From positions 1-27,451 of the IMG/VR virus record IMGVR_UViG_3300005549_000026: DNA of 27,451 nt. One strand, given 5' to 3'. The DNA is from a virus. Within the stretch, counting starts at the first letter, position 1; each line of letters begins with the position of its first letter. Position numbers and translations under genes: made by a program. This document shows, piece after piece, positions 1 to 15,081 of the stretch. The notes under the pieces are model-generated. The model saw only the letters and a list, made by a program, of their open reading frames with translations, was not told where the DNA came from and did not search any database.

Positions 1-807
1 CATCAGTGCGGTTGCGGCGGCCACGAGGCCGTTCTGGTCCACGTGAACGTACCGGAGGGTCGAGCGGTGGTCCCGGTGCCCGAGCCACGCGCTCACGACG
101 GGAAGAGACACGCCCGCGCGCACGAGGCGACTGGCGGCCGTGTGGCGCAAGGCGTGCACCACGACCTCCGGGTCGCCCCGGGTCGAGGACACGACGTCCC
201 GGGCGGCCCTGAACACGTGGTTCAGGGTGGACTGGGAGAGGCCGCACCAGGGTCCCCGCTGTTGGGGGAGTCGCGTTCGCGCGACCCTGACGGCCTCTTC
301 AGTGAGGGGCACCCATCGGGCGTCCCCGTTCTTGCTGGTGGCCACCACGGCGTGCGGGCGCGGGCCCTCGAGCTCGAGGTCGGCCCACGTCAGGGCCAGG
401 CCCTCCCCGGCGCGCAGGCCGGTCTCGGCCAGGAACTGCACCAGGGACGCCACGGCCGGACCGTGCTTGCGCGGGAGGCACGCCTGGGCCAGCTGGGTCA
501 CCTCGGCCTCGGTCAGCCACCTCGTCCTTCCCTTCGGCTCCCTCTGCCACGGCATGGCGCGGGTGACCCCGGCCTGCTCGAGCACCGCGGACAGGGCCGA
601 CAGGTGACGGTTGCACGTGGCCGGGCCCAGGCCCACGGCCAACATGGCGGCCACCATTCGGCGGAGGTCGGCGTCCGTGACGCGCGAGGCCGCCTTCTCG
701 CCCAGGAAGCGCACGCACCGCTGAGCGCGGCTATAGGCCACGTCCCCGGCCCGCTGGCGGTTGAAGCGCGCGTCGCGGGCCTGGGCCAGGGCGTCGGAGA
801 GCTTCAC
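1..807 (-). CDS. int: Tyrosine recombinase (phage integrase), 3' end cut by window edge
   Basis: Site-specific recombinase that would catalyse phage integration and excision. The frame is open for 269 codons and runs off the left edge. An N-terminal SAM-like DNA-binding region (about residues 1-85) precedes the catalytic domain. All expected active-site elements are visible: Arg132 in ETGLRAGEGLALTW, the beta-hairpin Lys159 in ATSKNGDARWVPL, His218/Arg221 in HALRHTAASRL, His244 in WLGHRDH and Tyr253 in STLRYVHV. Family members of this type are about 270-330 residues, so only a short tail is missing. The GTG start at 807 is chosen because it overlaps the upstream stop (GTGA), which suggests translational coupling. 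Two 17-bp direct repeats lie 0.4-0.5 kb upstream. Family assignment is firm; whether it is active, and its attachment site, cannot be seen. Confidence 0.95.
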   Translation of the reverse strand, partial: MKLSDALAQARDARFNRQRAGDVAYSRAQRCVRFLGEKAASRVTDADLRRMVAAMLAVGLGPATCNRHLSALSAVLEQAGVTRAMPWQREPKGRTRWLTEAEVTQLAQACLPRKHGPAVASLVQFLAETGLRAGEGLALTWADLELEGPRPHAVVATSKNGDARWVPLTEEAVRVARTRLPQQRGPWCGLSQSTLNHVFRAARDVVSSTRGDPEVVVHALRHTAASRLVRAGVSLPVVSAWLGHRDHRSTLRYVHVDQNGLVAAATALM

Positions 808-1067
808 GATACCGCACCCCGCAAGAACTCGGCGATCTCGTTCACCCAAGCCCGCCAGTCGCGAGCGGCCTTCAGGGCCGCCTTCCGTTCGGACGTGCTG
901 GCGGCCAGGGTGGCCACGAGCATGGCCGCGCCCTCGGGGCTCACGGCGTACCCGTACAGCTTGCGGCGCTTGCCCCGGCGCTCGTACACGGCCCAGTGGT
1001 CGGACCAGCCCTCGTCCCCGGCCCGCTCGGGCACGAACTCGAGCTCAATGGTGCCCAGGCGGATCAC
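804..1067 (-). CDS. Small hypothetical protein upstream of integrase
   Basis: Predicted 87-residue protein of unknown function. The N-terminal half looks beta-rich (MIRLGTIELEFVP, WAVYERRGKRRKLYGY) and the C-terminal half helical (ERKAALKAARDWRAWVNEIA). The GTG start at 1067 overlaps the stop of the upstream 76-residue gene (GTGA), and its own stop overlaps the integrase start in the same way, so three genes form a coupled cassette. A longer in-frame start further upstream would overlap the previous gene extensively and gives an Arg/Gly/Pro-rich N-terminus typical of shadow reading, so I reject it. Position directly before an integrase is compatible with an excisionase or directionality factor, but no helix-turn-helix is clear. 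No family recognised. Confidence 0.7.
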   Translation of the reverse strand: MIRLGTIELEFVPERAGDEGWSDHWAVYERRGKRRKLYGYAVSPEGAAMLVATLAASTSERKAALKAARDWRAWVNEIAEFLRGAVS

Positions 1068-2235: not shown

Positions 2236-3264
2236 CTACCCCGCGCCCGCCAATTCCAACGCCACGCGACGGGCCACGCGCTTGATCTGGGCCCCGCGGC
2301 CCAGGAGCCTGTCCCCGGCGCTCTCCTGGACGCGCGGGCGCCCGTGGTCCGCCCAGTGCGTCACGGCCTCAAGGGCCGCGTAGTACGTGCCGGCCACGAG
2401 GGCCTGCCGCTCGTGCTCCAATTCCCGCACCCACGCGCCCACGGTCTCCCGCGCGCGCTCGCGCTGCCGGTCCCACGCGGCCCCCTCCTTCGGGTCGGCC
2501 GGGCGCTCCTCGGCCACGGCCGGGAACACGATCGACGCCACGCGCGCGAAGTACTCCCCGGCCTGGGCCACGGTCACGTCGCGCGCCGCAAGGAACTCGG
2601 CCCCGGACTGGAGTTCGGCCAGCTGCAGTCGGCCGGCCGCGACCATCCCCTCCGCGGCCTTCAACCGGGCCGTGAGGTCGCCAGTGTGCTGGATCCGGAA
2701 GCCCACGCGTTCGCCGTCGGCCGCGCCGAGGGCCGCGCCGTACGTGTTGGCGCACACGATCCGGACCTCCGTCCCGAACCCGCGGAGGGCCGTGCTGCTG
2801 TCGAATGAGTTGAGCAGTGCGAGGTACGTGCTCGTGCGGTCGTCCCGGTTGAGGCCCACGCCGTACGACCCGACCTTGAGCAGCAAGAACAGCTTGCGTC
2901 CGCCGTGGGTGGTGCCCACGGTCTCCAGCTGAACGCCCGGGTGGGCCTCGGCGGCCTCGGCCAGCGCCAGAACGTCCTCGTGCGTCACGAGGGAGTAATC
3001 CGCGGAGACCGTGGCCAGGAAACGCCGGTCGGGCAGGAAGGCCGGCCCGAGCGGGTTCGGGGTCTCGGCCACCACGCCGCGCGCGTCGGGCACGGCGTCG
3101 CCGATGCCCCATTCGAGCGGCACCAACACCGGCTCCCACGGCACGGCCCTCCGGAACCCTTCGCGCACGGTCAGACCGCCGCGCTCCACCACCGTCCCGA
3201 GCCCGTGCCAAGCGGGCGCCCCGACGAGCACGAGCCCGTCCCGATTCGTGATTGCATGCGACAT
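2236..3264 (-). CDS. DUF932 / TIGR03299 phage-plasmid protein
   Basis: Predicted 342-residue protein with the hallmarks of the DUF932 (TIGR03299) family found on phages and plasmids: an N-terminal MSHAITNRDG and PAWHGLGTVV (residues about 17-26), a middle part with YSLVTHEDVL and GGRKLFLLLKVG, then LLNSFDSSTALR and VRIVCANTYGAAL, followed by a helical C-terminal half. The biochemical function of the family is not established. The length matches typical members (about 300-400 residues). The ATG at 3264 has a good Shine-Dalgarno (GGGAG, 7 bases upstream). Hairpin-forming sequences lie on both sides, so the gene may be its own transcription unit. Confidence 0.92.
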   Translation of the reverse strand: MSHAITNRDGLVLVGAPAWHGLGTVVERGGLTVREGFRRAVPWEPVLVPLEWGIGDAVPDARGVVAETPNPLGPAFLPDRRFLATVSADYSLVTHEDVLALAEAAEAHPGVQLETVGTTHGGRKLFLLLKVGSYGVGLNRDDRTSTYLALLNSFDSSTALRGFGTEVRIVCANTYGAALGAADGERVGFRIQHTGDLTARLKAAEGMVAAGRLQLAELQSGAEFLAARDVTVAQAGEYFARVASIVFPAVAEERPADPKEGAAWDRQRERARETVGAWVRELEHERQALVAGTYYAALEAVTHWADHGRPRVQESAGDRLLGRGAQIKRVARRVALELAGAG

Positions 3265-3333: not shown

Positions 3334-3675
3334 CTAGCGGGCGCCCGTTTCGCCAGTGTAGAGTGCGCCCACGACGGCCCCGGTCGTGGCGTCCACGGCC
3401 ACGGCCCGGACGGTCACCACGGGCCCGGGCGGCAGGGGCGGGCACGGGCCCGCGAGCTCGGGCCCGCCCGGCTTGGCCGCGCACCCGATCAAGAGGAGCT
3501 CGGCCGCAATGGCCAGTAGGCGCGCGCGCAGCATTGTGAGGCGCCAACCGAGGCCGAACGGGCGGCCGGGCCCGAGCGGGAGCGGGTCGTCCATGGCGGC
3601 CGTGCCGAGCCTGTGCGTGAGCTCGCGCCGGGCGGCCTCGGCGTTGATGCGGGCGAGGGTTTCGAGTGAGTGCAT
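3334..3675 (-). CDS. Small protein with internal lipoprotein-like signal
   Basis: Predicted 113-residue protein. The first 47 residues (MHSLETLARINAEAARR...) are helical and soluble. A second in-frame ATG (codon 48, MLRARLLAIAAELLLIGC) begins a basic, hydrophobic stretch ending in a canonical lipobox L-I-G-C, followed by the Pro-rich PGGPELAGPCPPLPPGP and a short beta-rich tail. From the internal start it would be a 66-residue lipoprotein; from the first start, a protein with an internal membrane segment. Rz1-type outer spanins are short Pro-rich lipoproteins, but no inner-spanin partner overlaps here, so that identity is speculation. ATG 3675 follows the hexapeptide gene by 6 bases. Confidence 0.6.
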   Translation of the reverse strand: MHSLETLARINAEAARRELTHRLGTAAMDDPLPLGPGRPFGLGWRLTMLRARLLAIAAELLLIGCAAKPGGPELAGPCPPLPPGPVVTVRAVAVDATTGAVVGALYTGETGAR

Positions 3676-3681
3676 ACTTGT

Positions 3682-4224
3682 CTAGTCTTTCTGGGCCGTG
3701 GCGGCCCGTTTCGGCGTAACTGCCTTCCAGAACGCGCGCACCGTGGCCACGATGGCGCGCAGGTCCGCGGCCGCGGCGGGATCGTGGCGCGCGCACAACT
3801 TCCGCTGCAGCGCGGGCGTCCAGTCGGCCACGCGGTGCGACTCGCACCCGTAATGCAGGACGGGGACGCCGTCCGCGTCGCGGTGGGTGGTCCAGTCGTA
3901 TTTGGCCCAACCGGACAGGATCGGCGCGTCCGCAAGGTCGCGCGTCACGCTGGCCCAGGCGCCCACGCGGGCCCCGTCGCCCACGCGGGCCCAGGCGCCC
4001 ACGCGGGCCCGGGCGCCCACGCGGGCCCCGGCGCCCACGATGGCCCCGGCGCCCACGCTGGCCCCGGCGCCCACGCTGGCCCGGTCGCCCACGCCGGCCC
4101 GGTCGCCCACGCTGGCCCCGGCGCCCACGATGGCCCCGGCGCCCACGCTGGCCCAGGCGCCCACGCTGGCCATCGGGTGCACCGTGGCCGTAGGGTGAAC
4201 GACCGCCGTCCAGTGAACGCTCAC
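3682..4224 (-). CDS. Hexapeptide-repeat left-handed beta-helix protein, copy 1 (15 repeats)
   Basis: Predicted 180-residue protein. After MSVHWT come 15 consecutive hexapeptides of the form A-x-V-x-x-x, mostly A-(S/I/R)-V-G-(A/D)-(G/R/W), ending near residue 96. This is the left-handed parallel beta-helix signature of hexapeptide transferases, here extraordinarily regular; 15 repeats equals five triangular coils. The C-terminal domain (about 97-180) contains GVPVLHYGCESH, then a DWT motif, an RHDP and VRAFWKAV. That domain is homologous to the C-terminus of the protein encoded at 4685-5383. No catalytic His loop or CoA/substrate extension is visible, so acyltransferase activity is not supported. 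GTG 4224 overlaps the preceding stop (GTGA). Function unknown. Confidence 0.85.
   Translation of the reverse strand: MSVHWTAVVHPTATVHPMASVGAWASVGAGAIVGAGASVGDRAGVGDRASVGAGASVGAGAIVGAGARVGARARVGAWARVGDGARVGAWASVTRDLADAPILSGWAKYDWTTHRDADGVPVLHYGCESHRVADWTPALQRKLCARHDPAAAADLRAIVATVRAFWKAVTPKRAATAQKD
3948..4182. repeat. 18-bp tandem repeat tract encoding hexapeptides (copy 1)
   Basis: About a dozen near-identical 18-bp units run head to tail; in plus-strand orientation they are variants of GCCCACGCTGGCCCCGGC. They encode the hexapeptide repeats of the minus-strand gene and keep perfect frame. Variation is concentrated at a few positions (G/A/C at the Ser/Ile/Arg codon and the unit-end codons), which indicates expansion by slippage or unequal recombination. 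There are no unique spacers, so it is not a CRISPR array. Confidence 0.9.
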
Positions 4225-4559
4225 GGGCGCACCCCCGCGACCGGACGGGCCCGTTCTTCCGTACCCCCGTGCACAGTCTCCATGGTCCACAACACCGCGT
4301 CCTGATCGTGCGCGTCGCGCAGGGATTCGGCGATCTGGCGCACGGTCTCCTCGGTGTAGTCCCCGAGGAGCGTTACCACGAGCGAGAGTTCCGGCTCCCC
4401 GCGCCAGACACCGATTGCGGTCGTGAGGGTCGCCCCGTCGATCCCGAGGGTCGCAAGGGCGCCGATGGTGCGCTGCAGGATCGGGGCCGGGTCCTCGTCG
4501 ACCACGTCCGCGACCACGGACCACGCTCTCGAGCCCACGTAGAACGTCGCGCGTATCAT
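4221..4559 (-). CDS. Hypothetical 112-residue protein
   Basis: Predicted soluble alpha/beta protein of 112 residues starting MIRATFYVGSRAWSVVADVV. It has alternating beta segments (PELSLVVTLLGDY) and helices (EETVRQIAESLRDAHDQD, PAPILQRTIGALATLG). ATG 4559 overlaps the stop of the small membrane gene (ATGA), with an AAAGAGA-like ribosome-binding site inside that gene. Its own stop overlaps the GTG of hexapeptide copy 1. It lies between the two hexapeptide genes, in one tightly coupled operon, so it may share their process. No family recognised. Confidence 0.75.
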   Translation of the reverse strand: MIRATFYVGSRAWSVVADVVDEDPAPILQRTIGALATLGIDGATLTTAIGVWRGEPELSLVVTLLGDYTEETVRQIAESLRDAHDQDAVLWTMETVHGGTEERARPVAGVRP

Positions 4560-4672
4560 CGTCGTCTCTTTCTGTCGCTCCACGCCAGCACGAGCCCGAG
4601 GAACAGCGCGCACACGGCCACGGCGGCCGCGACGATCGCTGTACCTTTCTCCCGGGCCTCGTGCACCGACAC
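4556..4672 (-). CDS. Small single-span membrane protein (38 residues)
   Basis: Predicted 38-residue protein, MSVHEAREKG followed by one hydrophobic segment (TAIVAAAVAVCALFLGLVLA, residues 11-30) and a basic tail WSDRKRRR. This predicts a single transmembrane helix with a cytoplasmic basic C-terminus by the positive-inside rule. GTG 4672 is 13 bases after the previous stop, with an alternative GTG two codons later. The stop overlaps the next ATG (ATGA). It sits between the two hexapeptide proteins. Function unknown; small phage membrane proteins include holins and inhibitors, but nothing here decides. Confidence 0.6.
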   Translation of the reverse strand: MSVHEAREKGTAIVAAAVAVCALFLGLVLAWSDRKRRR

Positions 4673-4684
4673 GGAGTGTATTAC

Positions 4685-5383
4685 CTATCGGCCCTTGCGG
4701 GCGGTCGCTTGCACCGTTCGCCACGCGGCCCGCACGGCCGCGAGCACCATGTCGCGTTGCCCGTCCATCTCGGGCCCGTGCTGGCTGGACATGCGGATGC
4801 GTTCGGCTCGCGTCCATTTCCCGAGCGCGTGGCGCTCGCACCCGAACCGGAAGAACGGGCGCCCGCCCACGGTTTCGAGCGTCCACGGGTGACCGTTGTG
4901 GCCGGAGAGGACGAGAACGGCCCCGGCCGTCACGCGGGCCCCGTCGCCCACGATGGCCCCGTCGCCCACGATGGCCCCGTCGCCCACGCTGGCGGCGGGG
5001 CCCACGCTGGCCCCGGCGCCCACGCTGGCCCTGGCGCCCACGCTGGCCCGGTCGCCCACGCTGGCCCCGGCGCCCACGCTGGCCCGGTCGCCCACGCTGG
5101 CCCCGGCGCCCACGCTGGCCCCGGCGCCCACGCTGGCCCGGTCGCCCACGATGGCCCGGTCGCCCACGCTGGCCCGGTCGCCCACGCTGGCCCGGTCGCC
5201 CACGCTGGCCCCGGCGCCCACGCTGGCCCGGTCGCCCACGCCGGCCCCGGCGCCCACGCCGGCCCAGGCGCCCACGCGGGCCCAGGCGCCCACGCGGGCC
5301 GTCGGGTACACCATTGCCGTTTCGTGCACGCGCGCGGTCGGGTGAACGGTCACGGCTAGACGAGTGTAGGGCTCTTGTTCCAT
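4685..5383 (-). CDS. Hexapeptide-repeat left-handed beta-helix protein, copy 2 (24 repeats)
   Basis: Predicted 232-residue paralogue of the protein encoded at 3682-4224. After MEQEPYTRLA there are 24 consecutive A-x-V-x-x-x hexapeptides (for example ASVGAGASVGDR), that is eight triangular coils, ending at ARVTAG. The C-terminal domain contains GRPFFRFGCERH, GKWTRAER, an HGPEM segment and VRAAWRTV. It aligns with copy 1 as G-x-P-x4-G-C-E-x-H-x4-W-T ... H-x-P ... V-R-A-x-W-x2-V. The conserved Cys, His and Trp suggest a small structural or metal/ligand site, but no known catalytic motif is present. ATG 5383 is preferred over an upstream TTG; no strong Shine-Dalgarno is visible. It is the first gene after the 5.4-5.7 kb control region. 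Function unknown; scaffold or surface adhesion are options. Confidence 0.85.
   Translation of the reverse strand: MEQEPYTRLAVTVHPTARVHETAMVYPTARVGAWARVGAWAGVGAGAGVGDRASVGAGASVGDRASVGDRASVGDRAIVGDRASVGAGASVGAGASVGDRASVGAGASVGDRASVGARASVGAGASVGPAASVGDGAIVGDGAIVGDGARVTAGAVLVLSGHNGHPWTLETVGGRPFFRFGCERHALGKWTRAERIRMSSQHGPEMDGQRDMVLAAVRAAWRTVQATARKGR
4929..5308. repeat. 18-bp tandem repeat tract encoding hexapeptides (copy 2)
   Basis: About 21 near-identical 18-bp units in direct tandem, plus-strand form GCCCACGCTGGCCCCGGC or GCCCACGCTGGCCCGGTC, in frame with the minus-strand gene. The unit types are the same as those in the tract at 3948-4182, so the two tracts are long stretches of mutual homology that could recombine and change repeat number. 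Confidence 0.9.
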
Positions 5384-5709
5384 GGCCAAACAATAGCGGG
5401 CCGCGCCGAGGCGGGTCGGACAAAGGACAAAGAATTGAGACACGAATCGACGCAACTCGTTGCTCCGCCCGAGTTACGTCGCCCCAATTGTGCGCGTTCG
5501 AATCCGCGAAGGATGTCGGCAACCGTCGCAACCCCTTGTCAACACTGGAGATAGAATCAAAAGAGCCCGCGCCGAGGATTCGGCACAGGCTCTGCATCGC
5601 GCGCGCGGGCGCGGTGGGCGGGGCATGGGGGGACTTGGGAGCGGCTGCGATGTCGTATGCCCGCTCGTGAACCGGGGCGGTCAGGGAGCCCGTTACGGAA
5701 ACGTAATAG
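5384..5709 (-). promoter_or_regulatory. Non-coding control region upstream of the hexapeptide operon
   Basis: This 326-base stretch has no convincing gene. On the minus strand a perfect -35 hexamer TTGACA lies at 5542-5537. It is followed by two direct repeats, GGTTGCGAC and GGTTGCCGAC; no good -10 hexamer is seen at 16-18 bases, so the promoter may be activator-dependent or not sigma70-type. Other elements are a palindrome GCAACTCGTTGC (5452-5463), a heptamer tandem GGACAAAGGACAAA near 5418, and TTACGGAAACGTAA (5693-5706), an inverted repeat with a 4-base centre. These look like operator sites, but this is inference. A terminator lies inside the region and is listed separately. Confidence 0.5.
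5555..5593 (-). terminator. Rho-independent-type terminator, minus strand
   Basis: AGAGCC (5562-5567) pairs with GGCTCT (5588-5593), with an inner GCCGA/TCGGC stem and a 4-base loop. On the minus strand the hairpin is followed directly by TTTT and GATTCT. It would end transcription coming from the 5710-7400 genes just before the control region of the hexapeptide operon. Confidence 0.65.
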
Positions 5710-12683: not shown

Positions 12684-13886
12684 TCAGGCCTTGATGCGTT
12701 GGAGGAGCAGGCGGAAGTCGCACTTGTTGTTCCCGCCGCTGGCTCGGTTGGAGTAGCGGAATACGATGTCGGACGCGACCGAGAAGGTCAGGACCAGGGA
12801 GTCCACGAACACGGAGTAGTCGAGGTCGGCGAAGTCCACCGAGGGCCGGTGCAGGCCCATGTCGTAGTAGATGATCTGCGCGGACGTGTCGTCGCTGTTC
12901 GTGAGGCGCAGGCTGGTGCGGTTGGTGGCGGACGCGGCCAGGGGCATGAGGGGCTTGAACACCCACCGCAGGCGCCACGTGCCGGCCGTGAGGCGGATGC
13001 GGTACGGGCTGATGGACGACCCGTCCACGTCCCCGCTGTTGTTTAGCTCCACGCGCCCGGCCCAGCCCGGGGTCATGTTGATGCGCGTGTTCACGTTCTG
13101 GCTCCAGGTGGCAACGCCGGGGTCCACGCCCGGGGACGCGAAGTCCTGCAGGCCGAAGCTGACCACGGTGGCGAGGGCCCGGGCCAGCACGGTCGGGTGG
13201 GACGCCAGGTTGATGTTGCGCCCGTCCGCGGCCGGGTAGCGCGCGCTCGAGTCGAGCTGGACCGCGTTGTTGGCGGCCACGCCCGCGTTCAGGACCGCGG
13301 CCGACCCCAGCATGAGGGCTGTTCGGAAGGGGGCCGGGGCCTGGTCGTCCCACTCGCCCGCCACCACCATGAGGCCGTCGTCGTTGTCCAGAACGGACGT
13401 GGGCAGGTTGCGCGCGGCCCCGGCCACGGTGTCCAGCTGGGACTTGATGACCGCGTCCAGGGGGGCCACGCCCGGGGACAGGTTCTCGATGCGCAGGGCC
13501 TCGGCGTCCCACTGCTCGTCGTCCCCCAGGGCCAGGCCGTCCAGGTCCGGGTCCACGGTCGTGTTGTCCCGTCCCTCGAGCAGGAGGTACAGCTTCTGAC
13601 GGTAGTCGGTGTCCAGGAGGGCGGCCGTGAGGCCGGCCGAGCCCGTGACCAGGTCCAGGAAGTGCACGAGCTGCCCGTCCTCGGTCCGGGGCGTGGTGCG
13701 CACCACGAGGACCTCGGCCCCGGCGGCGGGCGCCGCGGCCAGGGTCACGGTCTTGGCCCGGTCGTCGAAGGTGGCCGCCACGGGCGTGCCGTTCACGGTC
13801 ACGGCCAGGTGGGACGTGGACAGGTACGGCAGGCCCTGGATCGTGTGGGGCCCGACGCCGGGCGGGAGAGTGATGCTCGCCAGCAT
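12684..13886 (-). CDS. Tail fibre protein, copy 2 (T7 gp17-like N-terminus)
   Basis: Predicted 400-residue fibre. The N-terminal part (about 1-150) resembles the particle-binding domain of T7 gp17: HLAVTVNGTPVAATFDD, then LVVRTTPRTEDGQLVHFLD and a helical YRQKLYLLLEGRD. A middle part has VAPLDAVIKSQLDTVAGAAR, a LGSAAVLNAG element and QLDSSARYPAADGRNI. The C-terminal third is a predicted jelly roll (YRIRLTAGTWRLRWVF, NRTSLRLTNSDD). It is a paralogue of the fibre encoded immediately upstream, with shared order and motifs. It would attach to the tail and contact the host surface. No lyase or chaperone domain is visible. Confidence 0.88.
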   Translation of the reverse strand: MLASITLPPGVGPHTIQGLPYLSTSHLAVTVNGTPVAATFDDRAKTVTLAAAPAAGAEVLVVRTTPRTEDGQLVHFLDLVTGSAGLTAALLDTDYRQKLYLLLEGRDNTTVDPDLDGLALGDDEQWDAEALRIENLSPGVAPLDAVIKSQLDTVAGAARNLPTSVLDNDDGLMVVAGEWDDQAPAPFRTALMLGSAAVLNAGVAANNAVQLDSSARYPAADGRNINLASHPTVLARALATVVSFGLQDFASPGVDPGVATWSQNVNTRINMTPGWAGRVELNNSGDVDGSSISPYRIRLTAGTWRLRWVFKPLMPLAASATNRTSLRLTNSDDTSAQIIYYDMGLHRPSVDFADLDYSVFVDSLVLTFSVASDIVFRYSNRASGGNNKCDFRLLLQRIKA

Positions 13887-13887
13887 G

Positions 13888-15081
13888 CTAGGCCACGGCC
13901 GTGCTGACCTTGCGGAACATCAGGGTCGTGTTCGCGATGCGCAGGTCCGTGCCGTCCTCGTTCACGGCCCGCAGGACCACGGTGCCCCCGGCCGCGAGCT
14001 TCAGCAGGAAGATGTTGTGGATGGAGATCATGCCCCGCGTGGCGTTCCCGTCCGACTCGACGCTGATCTTGTCGTTGAACGTGTCGTACACGGTCTGGGC
14101 GCCGGTGTCGTCGTCGTTCGTGAGCTTCACGCGCACGTCCTGGTCGTTCCCGGCCGCGGCGTTGTTGTTGTACACGCGCACCACGTACTCGACCTCCCAC
14201 GTCCCGATGGACAGGGTGACCTTCTTGCCGGCGTTGTCCACCACCACGTCGCCCGAGTTGTCCACGCTGGTGAGGGTCCCGGGCGTGAGGCGGCTGCCCG
14301 CGGTCTGGCTCCAGGTGGCCGTGGCGTCGTTCGCGGGCGTCTGCTCGCTGGACTGGGCCACGTGCCCGAGCGTGGTGCGGTACCGAAGGTTCAGGAGGGC
14401 GTGGTTGGACAGGTCGATGTTCCGGCCGTCGTTCGAGGGGTAGCGCGCGGACCCGTCCAGCTGCACGACCTGATTCGCGCCCGTGCCCGCGTTCAGGACC
14501 GCGGCCGTGCCCAGGCCCAGGTGCGTGCGCGCCTGCGCGGGCGTGCGAATGGTCCATACCCCGGCCACCACCCACAGGCTCTTGTCGTTGTCCGCGCTGG
14601 ACACCACGGGCAGGTTGCCCGCGGCCACGCTGACCGCGTCCAGCTGGGACTTGGTGACCGCGTGCGACGCGGCCGCGCCCACGGCCAGGTTCTCGAGGCG
14701 CCGGTTCTCGCCGTCCCACTGGCCCCCGCCCCCGAGGGCCAGGAACGTGCCCCCCAGGATGACGTCCAGGGTCTCCTGGGCGATGTACAAGAGCTGCAGG
14801 GCGGACGTGTCCAGGTCGCTCTGGCGCACGTGCGACAGGTCGTTGAAGTCCACCAGGCGCCCGGCCTCGGTGTGCGGCGTGGTGCGCGTGACCACGATGT
14901 CCTCGCCCCCGACCAGGGTCAGGCCCGAGATGGTGAAGGCCGTGCGGGCCGAGTTGACCGTAAAGGACACGGCCGTGCCGGCCACGGTCACGCCCAGGTG
15001 GTCGCTGGAGAGAAATCGCAGGCTCACGAACGTATACGTGTTCTGGCCGGCCACCCCGACGAAGGACTCTTGCGAGAGCAT
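13888..15081 (-). CDS. Tail fibre protein, copy 1 (T7 gp17-like N-terminus)
   Basis: Predicted 397-residue fibre. The N-terminus fits the T7 gp17 particle-binding domain: YTFVSLRFLSSDHLGVTV, IVVTRTTPHTEAGRLVDFND and SDLDTSALQLLYIAQETLD. The shaft region contains SHAVTKSQLDAVSVAAGNLP, LGLGTAAVLNAGTGAN and QLDGSARYPSNDGRNI, motifs repeated in the second fibre. The C-terminal 120 residues form a beta-rich C1q/TNF-like domain (TLSIGTWEVEYVVRVY, DVRVKLTNDDDTGAQTVY), probably the receptor-binding tip. It lies 3 bases after the gp16-like gene, the gene order seen in T7. Binding specificity cannot be read from the sequence. Confidence 0.92.
   Translation of the reverse strand: MLSQESFVGVAGQNTYTFVSLRFLSSDHLGVTVAGTAVSFTVNSARTAFTISGLTLVGGEDIVVTRTTPHTEAGRLVDFNDLSHVRQSDLDTSALQLLYIAQETLDVILGGTFLALGGGGQWDGENRRLENLAVGAAASHAVTKSQLDAVSVAAGNLPVVSSADNDKSLWVVAGVWTIRTPAQARTHLGLGTAAVLNAGTGANQVVQLDGSARYPSNDGRNIDLSNHALLNLRYRTTLGHVAQSSEQTPANDATATWSQTAGSRLTPGTLTSVDNSGDVVVDNAGKKVTLSIGTWEVEYVVRVYNNNAAAGNDQDVRVKLTNDDDTGAQTVYDTFNDKISVESDGNATRGMISIHNIFLLKLAAGGTVVLRAVNEDGTDLRIANTTLMFRKVSTAVA

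Follow-up and report, generated by a model that had tools for sequence, protein, structure and literature searches.

A conserved C-terminal domain on hexapeptide and pentapeptide solenoids in an undescribed family of phage proteins

The IMG/VR record IMGVR_UViG_3300005549_000026 (27,451 bases, referred to below as the window, that is, the whole stretch of DNA analysed) is a fragment of a T7-like phage with its genes on the minus strand. It encodes a T7-type major head protein, tail tubular protein B, an internal virion protein, and tail fibres (12684–15081), together with a T7-type terminase, a DUF932 protein, a DUF7178 protein, and an integrase. Tail tubular protein B is only about 30% identical to that of Autographivirid phages in culture, and the contig has no recognisable RNA polymerase gene. 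The integrase is of the tyrosine type (1–849, minus strand; PF00589 at 1e-25), and its presence on a T7-like fragment suggests that the phage may be temperate. Between the terminase on one side and the integrase on the other lies a gene unit encoding two beta-solenoid proteins, LbH1 and LbH2.

The unit, which is read entirely from the minus strand, comprises LbH1 (4685–5383, 232 aa, ATG start), a 38-aa single-span membrane protein (4556–4672, GTG start), a 112-aa protein (4221–4559), and LbH2 (3682–4224, 180 aa, GTG start), so that a small membrane gene and a 112-aa gene are indeed placed between the solenoid genes, as the original prediction had it. The 38-aa gene overlaps the 112-aa gene by 4 bases, and so does the latter with LbH2, while the remaining genes of the unit lie close together. 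These overlaps uphold the coupling proposed for the unit but not its limitation to four genes, since the run continues into a gene for a 113-aa protein with a lipoprotein-like segment (3334–3675, minus strand), which starts 6 bases after LbH2. The DUF932 gene is found at 2236–3264 on the same strand. Searches with PADLOC defence models and Rfam gave no match.

The suggestion that the unit has its own control region is borne out by two features, both conserved before the corresponding unit of a syntenic relative, L003. One is a terminator-like hairpin (5562–5593, minus strand) that insulates the unit and is kept in L003 with a changed stem sequence. The other is a 29-base element, GACAAGNGNTTGNGACNGNTGCCGACATC (5512–5540, minus strand), which occurs once in each sequence searched and shows no sigma-70 match; it may be a phage promoter or a binding site.

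The near-perfect hexapeptide repeats of both solenoid genes are confirmed. LbH1 has a cap coil at its N-terminus (VHPTARVHETA), then roughly 20 A-x-V-G-x-x coils and a C-terminal domain, and LbH2 consists of hexapeptide coils followed by a C-terminal domain. They score 68.9 and 47.3 bits, respectively, against the Pfam Hexapep model (cut-off 27), which places both among hexapeptide-repeat proteins. The unbroken A-x-[VI]-G run amounts to 20 units in LbH1 and 12 in LbH2, the maximum reached in 5000 shuffles being 2. At the DNA level, TRF detects 18-bp tandem arrays on the minus strand, of 21.2 copies in LbH1 (4919–5300) and 12.6 copies in LbH2 (3946–4171), each with a unit match of 90%. The plus strand also contains long open frames, but these are by-products of the arrays; the minus strand is identified as coding by the Pfam matches, the conserved C-terminal domain, and synteny. 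The coils are uninterrupted, and, in line with the earlier reading of the sequence, neither catalytic loops nor a catalytic histidine are present beyond the N-terminal cap coil. LbH1 and LbH2 have a pI of 10.8 and 10.1, and their rods carry a net charge of +1 and +4; among the hexapeptide proteins whose charge was computed, that of L003 alone has a rod that is mildly acidic. AlphaFold2 did not predict the central part of the rod with confidence (pLDDT 36–51 in the full-length model). Comparison of the full-length model with predicted viral structures gave weak matches, one of them under E 0.001, whose names include phage pentapeptide, hexapeptide, beta-solenoid, and leucine-rich repeat proteins. 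A tblastn search with full-length LbH1 under a low-complexity filter returned no match.

The C-terminal domains of LbH1 (4685–4933, minus strand) and LbH2 (3682–3948, minus strand) proved to be homologous, as claimed originally: they are 35% identical, match each other at 3e-11, and have in common the motifs W-T, G-x-P, GCExH, a second W-T, and V-R-A-x-W. The domain spans about 75 residues with the pattern W-x12/13-[FY]-G-C-E-x-H-x4-W. An AlphaFold2 model of the LbH1 domain, calculated with 17 relatives as input, predicts four strands followed by two helices (pLDDT 91.9, pTM 0.80), and most of the LbH2 domain reaches pLDDT 90–98 in the full-length model. The original description of this domain as unknown stands as well. 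Searched alone, it has no convincing relative in Pfam, PHROG (none at E < 0.02), NCBIfam, or PDB sequences, and belongs to no known enzyme family; the best match of its fold among PDB structures has E = 0.51, meaning that no solved relative was found. When cultured phages and plasmids were searched with the domain by tblastn, no significant match emerged, and weak matches such as those to the crAss-like phage cr50_1 and to Acinetobacter phages were dismissed for their unrelated context. Our literature search found no paper on solenoid proteins of this kind.

Uncultivated phages encode at least 17 proteins with the domain, one of them on a contig of a metagenome-assembled genome (MAG), and in all 17 the domain directly follows a beta-solenoid. 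In L004, L024, L027 (two genes in tandem), L035, and L063 the preceding rod is a left-handed hexapeptide coil, and in L009, L011, L014, L015, L022, L026, and L030 it is a pentapeptide coil. With a 17-sequence profile, every member was recovered at 1e-13 or better in leave-one-out searches; a solenoid precedes all matches with E < 1e-15 and none of the weak chance matches. The invariance of W, GCE, H, and W is partly by construction, as the pattern searches imposed these residues in most members, but a solenoid ahead of the domain was not imposed. A pattern search of GTDB yielded a single genuine member, located on a Planctomycetota MAG contig of 3.5 kb, and the 294 Planctomycetota genomes searched contained no further ones. 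Both window proteins have the W-x12/13-[FY]GCExHx4W domain straight after the solenoid. Thus, LbH1 and LbH2 belong to an unnamed and undescribed phage family in which a solenoid is joined to a conserved domain.

The syntenic relative L003 has the same gene order as the window (control region, membrane protein of 34 aa, hexapeptide protein, homologue of the 112-aa protein, next gene, DUF932), with one solenoid gene, whose domain shares 61% identity with its LbH1 counterpart. The LbH2 domain is 40% identical to that of L027 and 39% to that of L004, compared with only 35% to that of LbH1. Other phages have two or three copies (records G003 and G010). Therefore, the twin state is probably not fixed, and a dedicated twin system, as once proposed, finds no support in L003, the sole syntenic relative. 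The parts of the proposal that are supported are a phage accessory unit with a control region of its own, solenoids devoid of an enzyme signature, and a C-terminal domain absent from every library tried. As a separate observation, record G003 (L009) carries the domain on three pentapeptide proteins, of which the two that were read have an identical N-terminus, a near-identical end, and different repeat parts.

A search with L063 identified hexapeptide proteins in 63 phage records. In Vibrio phage 1.139.A and Aeromonas phage Aer_P220 they end in GCQxHx4W or a close variant, and in BF766P1, phiRM10, Sfi19, AP1, and others in CGCFxGTxxEF. In a single hhalign comparison, the CGCFxGTxxEF group was weakly aligned with the window group, GC on GC (probability 23%, E 9e-4). 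Descent of the two domains from one ancestor is likely, and the domain of the cultured-phage proteins would then be a probable divergent version. Several deposited annotations at these loci are at odds with the arrays. In Acidovorax phage AP1 (L072 2686–3246), the gene deposited over the hexapeptide array lies on the opposite, wrong strand; in Aer_P220 (L068 2975–3283), the array is overlain by a deposited “MFS-type transporter” whose reading frame is wrong; and in 1.139.A (L069 3060–3199), GenBank lists CRISPR spacers over the array, on its opposite strand, which is probably a tandem-repeat artefact.

The 112-aa protein encoded between the solenoid genes resembles a divergent SAM lyase, a family of anti-restriction enzymes. 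The window protein itself scores 19.3 bits against PF23780 (SAM lyase), below the curated cut-off of 28, and membership in this family is for this reason not claimed; in the small phage family to which the protein belongs, four of the five members match the same model at E < 0.1, with a best value of 3e-5. SAM lyases conserve G56, Y58, E69, Q104, and E105 in Svi3-3 numbering (PMC7877911), and their likely counterparts in the 112-aa protein, matched by eye, are G50-x-W52, E57, and Q86-D87. The G, W, E, and Q are invariant in the alignment of the family (A10), and the residue after Q is either D or E. Matches to the PII/CutA fold are weak. Relatives of the 112-aa protein also occur in the Autographivirid phages S-CBP2, S-CBP3, and IME-DE1.

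Taken together, these data are best explained, with a probability of about 0.5, by a non-catalytic solenoid of variable length that is joined to a conserved domain and acts early in infection as a binder of a host factor, most likely in host takeover or counter-defence. As the rod is exchangeable, left-handed hexapeptide in some phages and pentapeptide in others, the conserved part that functions or docks is probably the C-terminal domain, with the rod serving as a scaffold for side chains that face outward. Other LpxA-type coils suggest by analogy that the hexapeptide rods probably form trimers. The proteins would bind a host factor without catalysis and thereby serve takeover or counter-defence. 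They are probably made early from an accessory region. The twin genes of G010 (L027) precede, on one strand, a gene for a T7-like RNA polymerase, and the hexapeptide protein gene of Aer_P220 is slightly upstream of the RNA polymerase; this location supports early expression in those phages, and early expression in the window phage may be inferred. The window context itself is consistent only with placement in an accessory region, the unit there not being demonstrably in the early region.

A more ambitious version, which we regard as tentative and rather doubtful, holds that the domain defines a widespread family in which one docking fold is carried on interchangeable solenoids of opposite handedness, and that an arms race with a host or defence target drives a rapid rewriting of rod length and surface through turnover of the minisatellites. 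In the arrays, silent positions are nearly uniform within each array, the codon set differs from phage to phage, and the chance that 32 units were independently coded by GCC, GTG, and GGC is about 4e-23. LbH1 and LbH2 use one codon set despite the 35% identity of their domains, suggesting exchange or a shared source of the arrays. In the main explanation, too, rod length and surface would change as the 18-bp units expand and become homogenised, the sequence pattern being evident and the mechanism presumed. The same codon uniformity and phage-specific dialect favour another account, in which a minisatellite effect largely explains the arrays, with units expanding in frame, folding harmlessly, and giving the rod little function. 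This account is unlikely, as the solenoid recurs with the same domain in many phages that have different rods, and as the A, V, and G framework is kept while variation sits at outward positions 2, 5 (or 4), and 6. In a segregating-site test, the pooled arrays contained 147 amino-acid-changing and 35 silent variants against 50.6 silent expected (p = 0.005), with no single array significant, so the excess of amino-acid-changing variants is a weak sign of selection. Variation of the DGR type was considered, since array variants can be written as changes of template adenines, and rejected: RVT_1 (reverse transcriptase) was found neither in the window record nor in four related records, which are possibly incomplete, and the L003 array does not fit.

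Somewhat less likely still is a part of the virion or a host-surface binder, with trimeric rods decorating the tail or head. Trimeric beta-helices are common in phage fibres, and the unit comes after the structural and terminase genes in the window. However, the tail fibre genes lie elsewhere (12684–15081), the G010 and Aer_P220 genes stand among small early genes ahead of the RNA polymerase, and relatives in cultured temperate phages are located near recombination and antirepressor genes; gene context thus lends no support to the host-surface role that had been put forward. A DNA mimic of the MfpA/Qnr kind, inhibiting gyrase or another DNA-binding enzyme, had been suggested too and is improbable. 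The pentapeptide solenoid is the fold of known DNA mimics, and the same C-terminal domain occurs on such solenoids in other phages, but LbH1 and LbH2 are basic (pI about 10–11), which argues against mimicry of DNA. Finally, an LpxA-type acyltransferase or gamma-carbonic anhydrase acting on the host envelope or metabolites is very improbable: the Hexapep match, LpxA/LpxD-like coil matches, and the VHPTA-type cap speak for it, but the enzyme models score far under their cut-offs (LpxD scores highest with 73.9 of 207 bits, and carbonic anhydrase reaches 22.4 of 250), the rod has no loops and no histidine past the cap, and pentapeptide coils can take its place.

That a single fold occurs on two rods unrelated to each other indicates that the conserved functional unit is the domain rather than the rod. 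Phage proteins with hexapeptide or pentapeptide repeats usually carry the annotation “acyltransferase”, “cytoskeletal”, or hypothetical, and some are called in the wrong frame or strand. A confidently folded domain devoid of a known relative offers a handle for defining the family, correcting the annotations, and testing function, and with a neighbour resembling SAM lyases, the idea of a counter-defence island becomes concrete and testable.

Among known systems, LpxA, LpxD, and gamma-carbonic anhydrase share with the window proteins the left-handed hexapeptide coil and the sequence of the N-terminal cap, whereas the window proteins lack catalytic loops and have another C-terminal domain. MfpA/Qnr-type proteins are comparable in that pentapeptide coils also precede the window-type domain in other phages, but the window rods are basic and hexapeptide, with repeats of period six and without strong acidity; pentapeptide DNA mimics are not known to have such a C-terminal domain. 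The 112-aa protein is like T3 SAMase and Svi3-3 in its GlnB-like size, weak fold matches, and G-x-[YW], E, and Q-[ED] residues, and differs from them in the shorter spacing between these residues. PHROG 5353, 5070, and 7964, which match LbH1 at 2e-21, 2e-12, and 5e-10 essentially over the repeat region only, are phage proteins of unknown function whose likeness lies in the repeats, without a match in the C-terminal domain. A further comparison is with the hexapeptide proteins of cultured phages. Most of them have CGCFxGTxxEF where the window proteins have GCExHx4W, and they possess an N-terminal YELT-type segment that the window proteins lack. At the same time, their C-terminal domain is comparable in size and has a G-C motif, then W/F, and a presumably helical end, and proteins such as Streptococcus phage Sfi19 orf229, Ruminococcus phage phiRM10 gp34, Vibrio phage 1.139.A gp58 (“trimeric LpxA-like protein”), and the Aer_P220 protein carry, like LbH1 and LbH2, A-x-V rods encoded by 18-bp arrays.
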